NCBI GenBank assembly: GCA_028683955.1
Contig: JAQUGR010000001.1
Span: forward strand, 124,001-188,000
DNA: 64,000 nucleotides
Direction: 5' to 3'
From: Bacillota bacterium
GTDB lineage: Bacteria > Bacillota > TC1
Position numbers and translations under genes: made by a program
The notes under the pieces: generated by a model
The model's input: the letters and a program-made list of their open reading frames with translations, nothing else
Told to the model about the DNA's origin: nothing
The model's database searches: none
Shown here: positions 6,746 through 64,000 of the stretch, in pieces
Numbering within the stretch: the stretch's first letter is position 1
Layout: every line of letters begins with the position of its first letter

Positions 6746-6789
6746 AAGCGTATAAGATATTAAAAGTAAATATTAGAGTTAATTTAAAT

Positions 6790-7040
6790 TCGTTGAGCAA
6801 AGGTAAGTACTTGTTGTCAAACGACAATAGAGAGCTGATGATGGTGGAAATTCGGTGTTAGTAACAGTTAGGAATGGATTTGTGAGAAGCTGGTGGAAAA
6901 TGGAAACATAAGTATATCAAGCCGTATGTCCCACGTTATAGGGTCGGGGGTATGTTAGTACCTTTAAAGGAATTATGAAAATAATTTGAAATTGGGTGGC
7001 ACCACGAGTCAATCGTCCCTTGGATGATTGACTCTTTTTG
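6790..7040 (+). ncRNA. T-box riboswitch, tRNA-Trp specific
   Basis: The 359-base gap before trpE holds a complete T-box leader. Visible parts are the AGAGAGCTGATG...GGTGGAAATTC distal stem I motif (about 6828-6852), the specifier loop GAATGGATT with TGG (Trp codon) at 6875-6877, the T-box sequence TGGGTGGCACCACG (6993-7006) and the terminator GAGTCAATC/GATTGACTC plus T run (7006-7040). The TGGC in the bulge pairs with GCCA, the 3' end expected for bacterial tRNA-Trp, whose discriminator is G. Uncharged tRNA-Trp should promote read-through into the trp operon. Confidence 0.93.
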
Positions 7041-55949: not shown

Positions 55950-57251
55950 TTGGGAATTAAAATAGTACACTACATAAACCAGTTTTATGGTGGAATTGGT
56001 GGAGAAGATAAGGCTGATTATGCTCCTGAGAAAATCAGTGGAGTTAAAGGTCCTGGTATGGGATTACAAGCTGCATTTGGTGACAAAGCTACTATTAGTT
56101 CTACTATAATATGTGGTGATTCATACTTCAATGAAAATATTGATGTAGCAACTGGAGTCATTCTTGAAATGATTAAAGAAGAAAATCCAGATGTATTTAT
56201 CGCAGGTCCTGCTTTTAATGCAGGACGTTATGGTGTAGCTTGTGGAGCTGTATGTAAAGCTGTATCTGAAAGTTTAAATATTCCAGTAGTAACTGGCATG
56301 TATATTGAAAATCCTGGTGCTGATATGTATAAAAAAAATGCTTATATGATAGAAACAACTAATTCAGCAGCAGGTATGAAAGACGCATTAGCAAAAGTAG
56401 CTGCTTTAGCTTTAAAACTTGGTTCAGGCGAAGCAATTGGCACACCTGAATTAGAGGGATACATGGCTAGAGGCGTTAGAAGAAATATATTCTGTGAAGA
56501 TAGAGGTGCTAAAAGAGCAGTTGATATGCTTGTACAGAAATTAAAAGGCGAAAAGATTACAACTGAATATCCAATGCCAACATTTGATAGAGTAGATCCT
56601 GCTGAGCCAGTTAAGGATGTTAGAAAAGCAAAAATTGCTATTGTATCATCTGGTGGACCAGTACCTAAAGGTAATCCGGATCATATTGAATCATCAAGTG
56701 CTTCAAAATTCGGAAAATATTCAATAGCGGGTATTGATGATTTAACTCCAGAAAATGGAGAAACTGCACATGGCGGATATGACCCTGTTTATGCAAATCA
56801 AGATTTAGACAGAGTTATACCAGTTGATATTTTGAAAGAAATGGAAAAAAGCGGAGAAATTGGCAGCTTACATGATTTCTATTATTCTACAGTAGGTAAT
56901 GGAACATCTGTTAATAACTCTAAAAAATTCGCAGCTGAAATAGCTAAAGATTTATTAGCAGCCAATGTTGATGCAGTAATTCTAACCTCTACTTGAGGAA
57001 CCTGTACTCGTTGCGGTGCAACGATGGTAAAAGAAATTGAACGTGCTGGATTCCCAGTAGTACACATGTGTACTGTAGTTCCAATTTCATTAACTGTAGG
57101 AGCAAATAGAATTATCCCTACAGTAGCAATTCCTTATCCTCTTGGCAATCCTGCCTTAACAGCAGTTGATGAAAAAGAGTTAAGAAGAAAATTAGTTAAG
57201 AAAGCTTTAAAAGCTTTAGAAACACCAGTTACAGAACAAACAGTATTTTAA
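55950..57251 (+). CDS. grdB: Glycine reductase selenoprotein B, gamma subunit
   Basis: A 433-residue selenoprotein that attacks pyruvoyl-bound glycine. It starts with TTG 55950 behind AAGGAGGT and reads TGA at 56994-56996 as selenocysteine 349 in TSTUGTCTRCG. The remaining frame continues without a break to TAA at 57249. A perfect stem-loop 13 bases after the TGA (57009-57023) is a good selenocysteine insertion element. Opening KIVHYINQFYGGIGGED is diagnostic. Confidence 0.96.
57009..57023 (+). promoter_or_regulatory. Probable bacterial SECIS stem-loop in grdB
   Basis: CGTTGC / GCAACG with loop GGT begins 13 bases after the in-frame TGA. The distance and a GGT loop resemble SelB-binding hairpins. 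Confidence 0.6.
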
Positions 57252-61591: not shown

Positions 61592-61891
61592 ATGATGAAG
61601 TTTAGTAAATATTATATATTAGGGATTATTGGTACATTACTTACCTTATATTATTCTATTTTGGTTATTGGTTTATTTAATCAAAATGGGTTATTGATGT
61701 TTACTGCTGGGATTGCATCATTGTTAGCATTATTGATACTAATTGGATTTAGACGAGCTAAGAATTTATCTGCTGCTCTGTTCTTGTTAGTTTCTATAAG
61801 TAATTTAGTTATAAATAACAGTATATTAACAGCTGTTATACCTGCTATTTTAGGTATAAGCTTAATAATAGATAGGAATGCAAATGTTTAA
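61592..61891 (+). CDS. Small membrane protein
   Basis: A 99-residue protein with about four hydrophobic segments and few charges; I do not recognise a family. GGAG lies 10-13 bases upstream of ATG 61592 (ATG 61595 is also possible). Overlaps the next gene by 14 bases, so the two are coupled. Confidence 0.72.
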   Translation: MMKFSKYYILGIIGTLLTLYYSILVIGLFNQNGLLMFTAGIASLLALLILIGFRRAKNLSAALFLLVSISNLVINNSILTAVIPAILGISLIIDRNANV

Positions 61892-62306
61892 AGAGGAACG
61901 AATTCTATTAAAATTAAGTATATTGTTAATTTTGGCTTTAAGCACTACATTATATTTTGGTCAGCAAGAAACTATTCTTGCAACACTAAATTTATTTGGA
62001 TTGAATAGTAATCAAGCAATAAAATTTGTGGAAAACTTGTTCTTAATTGAACATGCCTTGTTTCCTGAGCAGTTTAACATTTATATGGGTATATTAGGAT
62101 ATATATCAACCTTGGTAGTTTTTATAGCTACACGTTTGTTAATTAAACCAAAAATGAAAAGAGTATTCATAGCTGGTATATCTCTTATAATTTTAGGCTT
62201 TATAGATATGATTATTCTTGATATAAGTGTGATCGGTTGGTTAGCTGGACCGATGATAATGATTGCTGGATTTTTAATATATAGAAAAAGTTATTATTAT
62301 TTGTGA
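61878..62306 (+). CDS. Small membrane protein
   Basis: A 142-residue protein with about four hydrophobic segments separated by short loops, family not recognised. ATG 61878 and ATG 61884 are both possible. It is coupled to the preceding membrane protein; together they may form one small complex, but nothing in the sequence gives a role. Confidence 0.7.
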   Translation: MQMFKEERILLKLSILLILALSTTLYFGQQETILATLNLFGLNSNQAIKFVENLFLIEHALFPEQFNIYMGILGYISTLVVFIATRLLIKPKMKRVFIAGISLIILGFIDMIILDISVIGWLAGPMIMIAGFLIYRKSYYYL

Positions 62307-62323
62307 AAATTTACACTAAACTA

Positions 62324-62351
62324 TTGCAAAATACCTGAGATTTATTATAAT
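62324..62351 (+). promoter_or_regulatory. Promoter of the tandem RNA
   Basis: TTGCAA (62324-62329), 16-base spacer, TATAAT (62346-62351). Predicted start near 62358, just before the first hairpin. Confidence 0.65.
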
Positions 62352-62357
62352 AAGAGT

Positions 62358-62547
62358 AACTAGATAAGCAATTGACTTAGGTGCTGGGAACTGAAGTCAC
62401 TAGTAATTGGAACATAGCCAGTAGATGATTTGGCGTATGTTCTTTTTTAATATAAAAAATATGAAATCTTGGCTTTGGAACTGGGAACTAGAGCCTTTAA
62501 ATGATAGAACAAAGCCAGGGAAAGTTTTGGCTTATGTTCTTTTTTTA
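62358..62547 (+). ncRNA. Tandem structured RNA with two terminators (candidate riboswitch)
   Basis: The 329-base gap before the amidohydrolase holds two related units. The hairpins at 62374-62398 and 62471-62495 share 17 of 25 bases, including GG..CTGGGAACT in the loop; the stem changes A-T to G-C and T-A to T-G, which is covariation. Each is followed by an intrinsic terminator (62410-62448 and 62506-62546). CTGG of each loop can pair with CCAG in the following terminator's 5' side, offering an antiterminator. It is not a purine, guanidine-I/II, TPP, SAM or glycine riboswitch as I know them. It may be related to a candidate RNA motif reported ahead of ssnA-type genes, which I recall but cannot verify. 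Confidence 0.7.
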
Positions 62548-62604
62548 TACAAAAAAATAACTGATAACGTATTCAGAAAATGATATCATATACAAAAGGT
62601 ATAG

Positions 62605-62635: not shown

Positions 62636-63943
62636 ATGTTAATTATTGTAAAAGGTAAATATGTTTTAACAAGTGAAGGTTTAAAAAATGACTACGCTGT
62701 AGTTGTTGAAGATGGAATTATTAAAGAAATTCTACCTTCAAGTCAACTTAAGAACATTGAAGGTGTTGAAGTTGTAAATGTCAAAAATGGTATTGTAACT
62801 CCTGGTTTTATAAATGCCCATACACATATGTATGGAACAGTTGCGCATGGAATTCATACAGAAAAAGTAATTAAAGATTTTACTGATTTTCTAGAAATAT
62901 TTTGGTGGCCAATGGTTGAAGATCAAATTGATAGTGAATTAATAAAAGCAACAACTGCTTGGGCTTGTGTGGAATCAATAGATTCAGGTGTAACTACAAT
63001 TGTTGATACATTAGAAGCACCTAATTCCTTAATGGGATGCTTAAATACCGAAAAAGAAGTGATTAATAAGTTTGGATTAAGAGCGTATTTATCATTTGAA
63101 GCAAGTCAAAGAAAAGATGAAGAAAATTCTTTAAAAGGCTTAGATGAAAATTATAGATTTGCTATAGATAATAAAGGAAATGAATTGATTAAAGGTTTTA
63201 TGTCTATACATACATTATTCACATGTGATAAAGAATATATTATGAAAGCTAAGAAAATGTCAGATGAAGCAGGATGTTTTTTCCATATGCATCTTTCTGA
63301 AAGCATATATGAGCCAACATGGTCACTAAATAAATATGGGAAAAGACCTGTTGAAGTATATGATGAACTTGGAATACTAGATAATAATATACTTGCATCA
63401 CAAGTTGTACAAATGTCAGAAAAAGAAAAAGAAATACTTCTAAATAAAAATGTCAATATGATTCATATGCCTTTATCTAATTGCGAAGTTGGTGGCGGTA
63501 TTGCCCCTTATCCAGATTTTATAGAAAAAAATGGAAATGTGGGACTTGGATCTGATGGTTATATAAATAACTTTTTTGAAATAATGAGAGGAGCATTCTT
63601 GATACATAAAGCTTTTAGACAAGATCCTCAAGTTATGAAAGGAAAAGAAGTCTTTGATATGGCAACAGTAAGTGGTGCTAAATCAATTGGCCGAAATGAC
63701 TTAGGGAAAATTGAAGTTGGTGCTAAGGCTGATTTAATTACAATAGAATTAGATACACCTACTCCAATAAATGAATACAATCTTTATGATCAACTTATTT
63801 TATTCAGAAATCCACATAATGTAAGCAATGTATTGGTAAATGGTATTCTTTTGAAAAAAGATGGTAAATTACTTAATATTGATGTTGAAAAGATAAAAAA
63901 AGATTTAAGAGATGTTACACAAAAACTTTGGGATAAACAATAG
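62636..63943 (+). CDS. Amidohydrolase of the SsnA/MtaD/TRZ-ATZ deaminase group
   Basis: A 435-residue metal-dependent hydrolase. The N-terminal beta part leads to the metal motif FINAHTHMYG (residues about 60-69), then MSIHTLFTC, the metal histidine in FFHMHLSES, the MIHMPLSNCEVGGG segment and the metal aspartate in GLGSDGYINN; a C-terminal beta part closes the fold. Relatives deaminate guanine, methylthioadenosine, adenosylhomocysteine or triazines; the substrate cannot be told here. A tandem RNA upstream suggests ligand control. In glycine-reducing clostridia, purine breakdown yields glycine, which makes a purine-like substrate attractive but unproved. Confidence 0.85.
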   Translation: MLIIVKGKYVLTSEGLKNDYAVVVEDGIIKEILPSSQLKNIEGVEVVNVKNGIVTPGFINAHTHMYGTVAHGIHTEKVIKDFTDFLEIFWWPMVEDQIDSELIKATTAWACVESIDSGVTTIVDTLEAPNSLMGCLNTEKEVINKFGLRAYLSFEASQRKDEENSLKGLDENYRFAIDNKGNELIKGFMSIHTLFTCDKEYIMKAKKMSDEAGCFFHMHLSESIYEPTWSLNKYGKRPVEVYDELGILDNNILASQVVQMSEKEKEILLNKNVNMIHMPLSNCEVGGGIAPYPDFIEKNGNVGLGSDGYINNFFEIMRGAFLIHKAFRQDPQVMKGKEVFDMATVSGAKSIGRNDLGKIEVGAKADLITIELDTPTPINEYNLYDQLILFRNPHNVSNVLVNGILLKKDGKLLNIDVEKIKKDLRDVTQKLWDKQ

Positions 63944-63960
63944 CTAAACAGAAAGGTATG

Positions 63961-64000
63961 ATGAAGATGTCATTATTTGAACATAACAATAACAAATATA
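63961..64000 (+). CDS. Start of a gene cut by the window end
   Basis: GAAAGG (63951-63956) is followed by in-frame ATG codons at 63958, 63961 and 63967, and the frame stays open to the end (reading MSLFEHNNNKY from 63967). It is 15-25 bases after the amidohydrolase and so is probably in its operon. Too little is visible to name it. Confidence 0.5.
   Translation, partial: MKMSLFEHNNNKY

Follow-up and report, generated by a model that had tools for sequence, protein, structure and literature searches.

The DNA analyzed here, a stretch of 64,000 nucleotides referred to throughout as the window, carries two successive RNA units, each composed of a P1 hairpin and an intrinsic terminator (unit 1, positions 62369-62451; unit 2, positions 62466-62548). 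A sigma-70/A-type promoter with the arrangement TTGCAA-16-TATAAT (62324-62351) lies immediately 5' of unit 1. The gene downstream, which is putatively regulated by these units, encodes an SsnA-type amidohydrolase (62636-63943) and stands at the head of a uric-acid (purine) degradation cluster; its top NCBIfam match was PRK07203/SsnA at 276 bits, under the cut-off of 444. It is followed by the start of a gene for an XdhA/XdhD-type molybdenum hydroxylase (63960-64000), which continues beyond the end of the window. The promoter, both units and both genes are on the plus strand. Two small open reading frames of 99 and 142 amino acids, probably membrane proteins, occupy positions 61592-62306 between glyA and the RNA and had no Pfam or NCBIfam match. 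Elsewhere in the window, a cobalamin riboswitch (2575-2739) and a T-box leader (6784-7023) were detected above the Rfam gathering score. A glycine/sarcosine-reductase-type reading frame (55950-57034) stops at an in-frame TGA directly followed by a SECIS_4 element (56997-57034); thus, this TGA is probably a selenocysteine codon, and the list of open reading frames splits one gene.

The two units share one plan. The putative aptamer part of unit 1 (62369-62409) consists of an outer helix P0, CAATT/AATTG (62369-62373 with 62405-62409), and the hairpin P1 (62374-62398), whose loop TGCTGGGAA is closed by GG/CT. The terminator, P2 (62410-62448), has the 5' shoulder GCCAG (62417-62421). A pseudoknot is predicted between CUGG of the P1 loop (62384-62387) and CCAG in the terminator (62418-62421). 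The corresponding elements of unit 2 are a putative aptamer part (62466-62506) with a short outer helix AUC/GAU, hairpin P1 (62471-62495) with loop AACTGGGAA, terminator P2 (62507-62546) with shoulder GCCAG (62514-62518), and pseudoknot strands CUGG (62481-62484) and CCAG (62515-62518). In both units the P1 loop has 9 bases, NNCUGGGAA, with closing pairs GG/CU, and its CTGG is complementary to the CCAG of the following terminator. The units form an 88-nt direct repeat of 73% identity, 97 nt apart. P1 together with the terminator folded better than shuffled sequence (z of -2.99 for unit 1 and -3.36 for unit 2), with 1/200 and 0/200 shuffles, respectively, folding equally well; folding of P1 by itself was not significant against shuffles. 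Two terminators were observed in the region, against 0.1 expected.

A covariance model built from the two window units only (R1) recovered tandem units ahead of the orthologous gene in three other species of the window's genus (two units in L002, two in L003 and three in L009). Tandem copies are confined to this genus, at 2, 2, 2 and 3 units. When R1 was searched across the phylum (399 genomes), one distant unit was found (L030/L077), in which CUGG of the loop is replaced by CCGG and CCAG of the terminator shoulder likewise by CCGG. The paired change played no part in detection; R1 aligned only the P1 of this unit. With the enlarged models R2 and R3, extended stepwise from R1, and an ssnA protein search, the total reached 18 units at 13 loci in 11 genomes of one phylum (the window's genome, G001-G004, G006-G009, G083 and G119), and homologues with the core kept and covarying stems were present in other genera and families. 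The promoter is found again in the two close relatives, and several other relatives have a comparable one; the hexamers of the window are identical in L002, L003 and L071 and similar in L098 and L099. The promoter scan on its own was not above chance. Matches without the core GGNNC(U/C)GGGAAC were inspected and then excluded; those given by R1-R3 at L019-L029, L031, L075, L078, L080, L081, L087, L088 and L090-L094 were generic terminators or coding sequence. The RNA was absent from Bacillota ssnA homologues in other families. Thus, the pathway does not need the RNA.

Conservation and covariation were examined across these relatives. The core GGNNC(U/C)GGGAAC was invariant in all 18 units. In a 16-unit alignment, standard pairs filled 93.1% of the cells of P1, the terminator stem and the pseudoknot, both sides had changed in some unit for 14 of the 19 pairs, and the covariation score was 0.615 compared with 0.251 for shuffled alignments, none of 500 of which scored as high. 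Pairing fell to 45% or less when the registers were slid. All pseudoknot cells were paired (64/64); three of the four pseudoknot pairs are invariant and one covaries. The alignments (A6/A7) were registered by hand, with linkers trimmed and N inserted, which biases them toward the named structure. In the raw genomic sequence, 9 units have CUGG with CCAG, 9 have CCGG with CCGG, and none is mixed. P0 recurs with differing letters in most relatives, for example as AUCCUA/UAGGAU in L071 and AAAUCUA/UAGAUUU in unit 3 of L009, and the mean outer-helix score of 11.4 exceeded that of shuffled flanks (9.4 +/- 0.46; 0/500). Sequence and covarying structure are shown; this RNA is real and conserved, and we regard its structure as nearly certain.

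The two pairings compete for one strand. The CC of the terminator shoulder has a second partner, an invariant GG in the 3' arm of the terminator, and since the same CC is used in both pairings, terminator and pseudoknot are mutually exclusive. When CC(A/G)G was barred from pairing, the terminator became 5-15 kcal/mol less stable. The exclusion is a shown property of the sequence; its regulatory consequence is inferred.

The RNA is associated with one pathway. Beyond ssnA, the cluster in the window's genome continues with Xdh-type subunits, a UacX-like ferredoxin protein of dihydroorotate-dehydrogenase fold, a PnrA-like ABC binding protein, YgeY (398.6 bits; cut-off 321) and a carbamoyltransferase, and later with a second deaminase-type amidohydrolase, a PLP enzyme, a hydantoinase and a carbamate kinase, the last two both exceeding their family cut-offs. 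These genes are components of the reductive uric-acid pathway (PMC12507026). All 13 loci adjoin genes of this pathway (ssnA, carbamate kinase, hyuA, ygeY), and no target gene outside it was seen among the loci found; the gene association is also shown. The commonest target is ssnA, an early step (8 of 13 loci), and in relatives the SsnA-type amidohydrolase holds the same position 3' of the RNA. The RNA lies 5' of ssnA and, where the flank is visible, 3' of carbamate kinase in G006-G009, between hyuA and carbamate kinase in G001 and G119, and between glyA and ygeY in G083 and G119. One G083 copy is 3' of hyuA at a contig end, with the gene beyond it out of view.

Several further features of these neighborhoods were observed. 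In L077 and L079, from another family, glyA is directly 5' of the RNA and ygeY is also present; in the window's genus, too, glyA lies 5' of the RNA, a neighborhood kept across families. In G003, three RNA units (L009, 2665-2954 and 3001-3270) precede a truncated ssnA whose reading frame stops after about 70 matching residues, an arrangement that counts against the reading proposed below; genes for a flavoprotein and an amino-acid ABC transporter come next. Here the cluster appears to have been lost and the switches retained; alternatively, the assembly may be wrong. In family f48 (L107, L108), ssnA is preceded by a different conserved hairpin leader, GGAAACAAGGTAAGAT...ATCTTGCTTTGTTTCC, possibly another attenuator of the uric-acid pathway.

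The original prediction had placed two hairpin-terminator units in series at this locus. All of its coordinates held, as did the hairpin and intrinsic terminator of each unit (by the direct repeat, folding against shuffles and the terminator scan), the competition of loop CTGG with termination through CCAG (by the fully paired pseudoknot cells) and the outer helix of unit 1. Compensatory change in the stem, which it had also claimed, held as well, although few such changes separate the two window copies and the strong covariation is supplied by the relatives. A lack of covarying homologues outside this genome would have refuted it; the covariance model from two copies that it proposed was run, and homologues with conserved loop and covarying stem exist outside the window's genome. 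The link to an amidohydrolase, with ssnA as a suggestion, held and is refined: the target is a reductive uric-acid cluster and not a stray amidohydrolase. It matched the RNA to no named riboswitch class and did not name guanidine-IV, whose architecture matches. The candidate motif near ssnA that it mentioned was found neither in Rfam 15 nor in the literature searched; when the window, relatives and sugE leaders were scanned with Rfam 15, no family matched the RNA, and the literature searched describes no ssnA motif, ssnA RNA or uric-acid riboswitch in such leaders.

We propose that the RNA is a small-molecule riboswitch, which is likely, although there are no ligand or binding data. It shows a general hallmark of riboswitches, namely conservation and covariation across genera in the leaders of functionally related genes. 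Each unit would be a complete transcription-terminating ON switch of an undescribed orphan class; this is likewise the probable reading, made without ligand, binding or expression data. In the proposed mechanism, the P0/P1 hairpin would display a loop with the invariant GG-NN-C(U/C)GGGAAC-U. Binding of ligand would stabilize the pseudoknot, in which loop C(U/C)GG pairs with CC(A/G)G of the terminator 5' shoulder, and the shoulder strand, sequestered from the invariant 3' GG, would leave the terminator weakened, such that polymerase would continue into ssnA and the purine-degradation cluster. In the absence of ligand, the terminator would form. Since the pseudoknot takes a strand from the terminator, an ON switch is inferred, and regulation is likely to be by antitermination, an inference for which there are no expression data. 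From the catabolic role of the target genes, we infer that the pathway is most likely induced by its own substrate, uric acid or a closely related purine. The best candidates would be uric acid or a near catabolic relative (xanthine, yanthine, guanine). We lean toward a purine, but the identity of the ligand is inferred, without binding data.

One rival explanation is that the RNA is a guanidine-IV riboswitch or a Gd4v variant, sensing guanidine or the unknown ligand of Gd4v. The layout is shared: a 5' hairpin, a 3' terminator, a loop-shoulder kissing pair and antitermination to ON. The guanidine-IV kissing pairs C30-G71 and A29-U72 match the register of C16-G54 and 15-55 in the window RNA, and the equivalent of the kissing G (G71 in C. 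botulinum, G66 in L. lactis) is G in 18/18 units, paired to the loop C. However, U72 and G77, which in guanidine-IV are 97% conserved and required for guanidine binding or kissing (PMC7736828, PMC11611296), are not conserved here: the equivalent of U72/U67 is U in 8, C in 7 and G in 3 of 18 units, and that of G77/G72, assuming equal loop length, is G in 7, U in 9 and A in 2. This comparison was based on published mutational data, not on guanidine-IV sequences. Further, the window's own genome lacks a sugE/Gdx (SMR) gene, and sugE, MATE, acetyltransferase or Gd4v transaminase genes adjoin none of the loci, all of which have uric-acid genes. Models R1 and R3 matched none of the sugE leaders tested, and Rfam 15 gave no guanidine-IV match anywhere scanned (window, relatives, sugE leaders). 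Because two required nucleotides are not conserved, sugE is missing from the genome and the gene set differs, membership is unlikely; the candidate probably works like guanidine-IV, with ligand binding inferred, and is not classed as a member.

The sugE leaders themselves showed other motifs. Plasmid sugE leaders carried guanidine-I or no motif. Three genomic leaders 5' of sugE-type SMR genes (L043, L051, L054) share a GCCG-GUA hairpin, a UAGGCC loop and a terminator; this shared motif had no Rfam match and could be guanidine-IV or another guanidine-gene-associated motif.

A second alternative is that the riboswitch senses a cofactor or a later product of the pathway (ureido compounds, diaminopropionate, glycine, carbamoyl phosphate) instead of the purine itself. 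In its support, the RNA also precedes late-step genes (carbamate kinase, ygeY), and some loci adjoin glyA. Against it, induced catabolic clusters are usually switched on by substrate, and the early-step gene is the most frequent target. We regard it as unlikely.

It is similarly unlikely that termination is prevented by a protein, rather than a small molecule, bound to the P1 loop in the manner of ANTAR, LicT or PyrR. In favor of this reading, such proteins usually recognize short hairpins that precede terminators, and GGGAAC in the loop could serve as a binding site. However, proteins with the LicT-type CAT_RBD domain were absent from 10/10 motif genomes, ANTAR proteins were absent from 7/10, the window's own genome included (present in 3/10), the P1 loop has 9 bases and is not a hexaloop, the co-change of loop and terminator points to RNA-RNA pairing, and no regulator gene was seen in the examined parts of the cluster.

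A further rival is a two-input gate in which the tandem units are two different sensors. In its support, unit 1 and unit 2 fall into separate clades, with all three species in each, and show fixed differences at positions 14-15 of the loop and 55-56 of the terminator, but the invariant core bases are identical in both units and in single-unit relatives, and the tandem units of L009 group apart, as if duplicated in their own line, which makes it unlikely. The clades with three species in each indicate that the pair is old and that both copies were retained with the same core. Because both units keep that core, a sharper response to one ligand is the likelier arrangement, and of the original "sharp, cooperative or two-input switch" the two-input part is unsupported. 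Two or three full units in series would act as successive checkpoints for one ligand and give a steeper response; such pseudo-cooperative steepening, which is inferred here, is known for tandem riboswitches (PMC9481103) and is likely the better fit.

A bolder form of the purine-riboswitch reading is that this RNA is a third specificity on a guanidine-IV-like kissing-loop scaffold, binding uric acid (or xanthine) and switching ON the reductive uric-acid pathway in anaerobic Bacillota, with 2-3 copies forming a near-digital switch. We hold this to be a serious possibility that falls a little short of an even chance; if true, induction of uric-acid breakdown by an RNA would be known here for the first time. 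The reductive pathway was elucidated as recently as 2025, and the authors of that work describe its gene regulation as poorly understood (PMC12507026). The candidate RNA offers a concrete, testable regulator for these genes. Were uric acid the ligand, it would be a natural ON sensor of a metabolite linked to gout and could be used in bacteria engineered to lower uric acid. Were the RNA related to guanidine-IV and Gd4v, one small kissing-loop scaffold would have been re-tuned to new ligands.

Of the known systems, guanidine-IV (GGAM-1, mepA motif; PMC7736828, PMC11611296), which binds guanidine at about 0.2 mM, is like the candidate in its hairpin-terminator form, kissing register and antitermination to ON. 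It differs in its targets, sugE/MATE there and uric-acid catabolism here, and was listed as never tandem in a 2022 survey, whereas tandem copies occur here. Gd4v (PMC9788692) is likewise a same-architecture variant, presumed ON, with a non-guanidine ligand suspected, but it precedes a PLP transaminase (PRK07324), acetyltransferases and MATE pumps rather than ssnA, hyuA, carbamate kinase and ygeY. It also has an extra hairpin on the terminator, of which there is no clear counterpart in the window units; loops are 3-8 bases in most units, and a small extra hairpin is possible in L071. Xanthine-I (NMT1 motif; PMC7373994) shares the theme of purine oxidation and binds xanthine and uric acid. However, it is a two-stem junction that acts in Proteobacteria as an OFF switch at the level of translation, almost never with a terminator, and neither the window nor the relatives gave an Rfam 15 match to its sequence and structure. 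Tandem TPP, glutamine and other riboswitches (PMC9481103) belong to other RNA classes and serve other pathways, but share with the present locus the arrangement of two to three full switches in series before one gene, every one of them equipped with a terminator.
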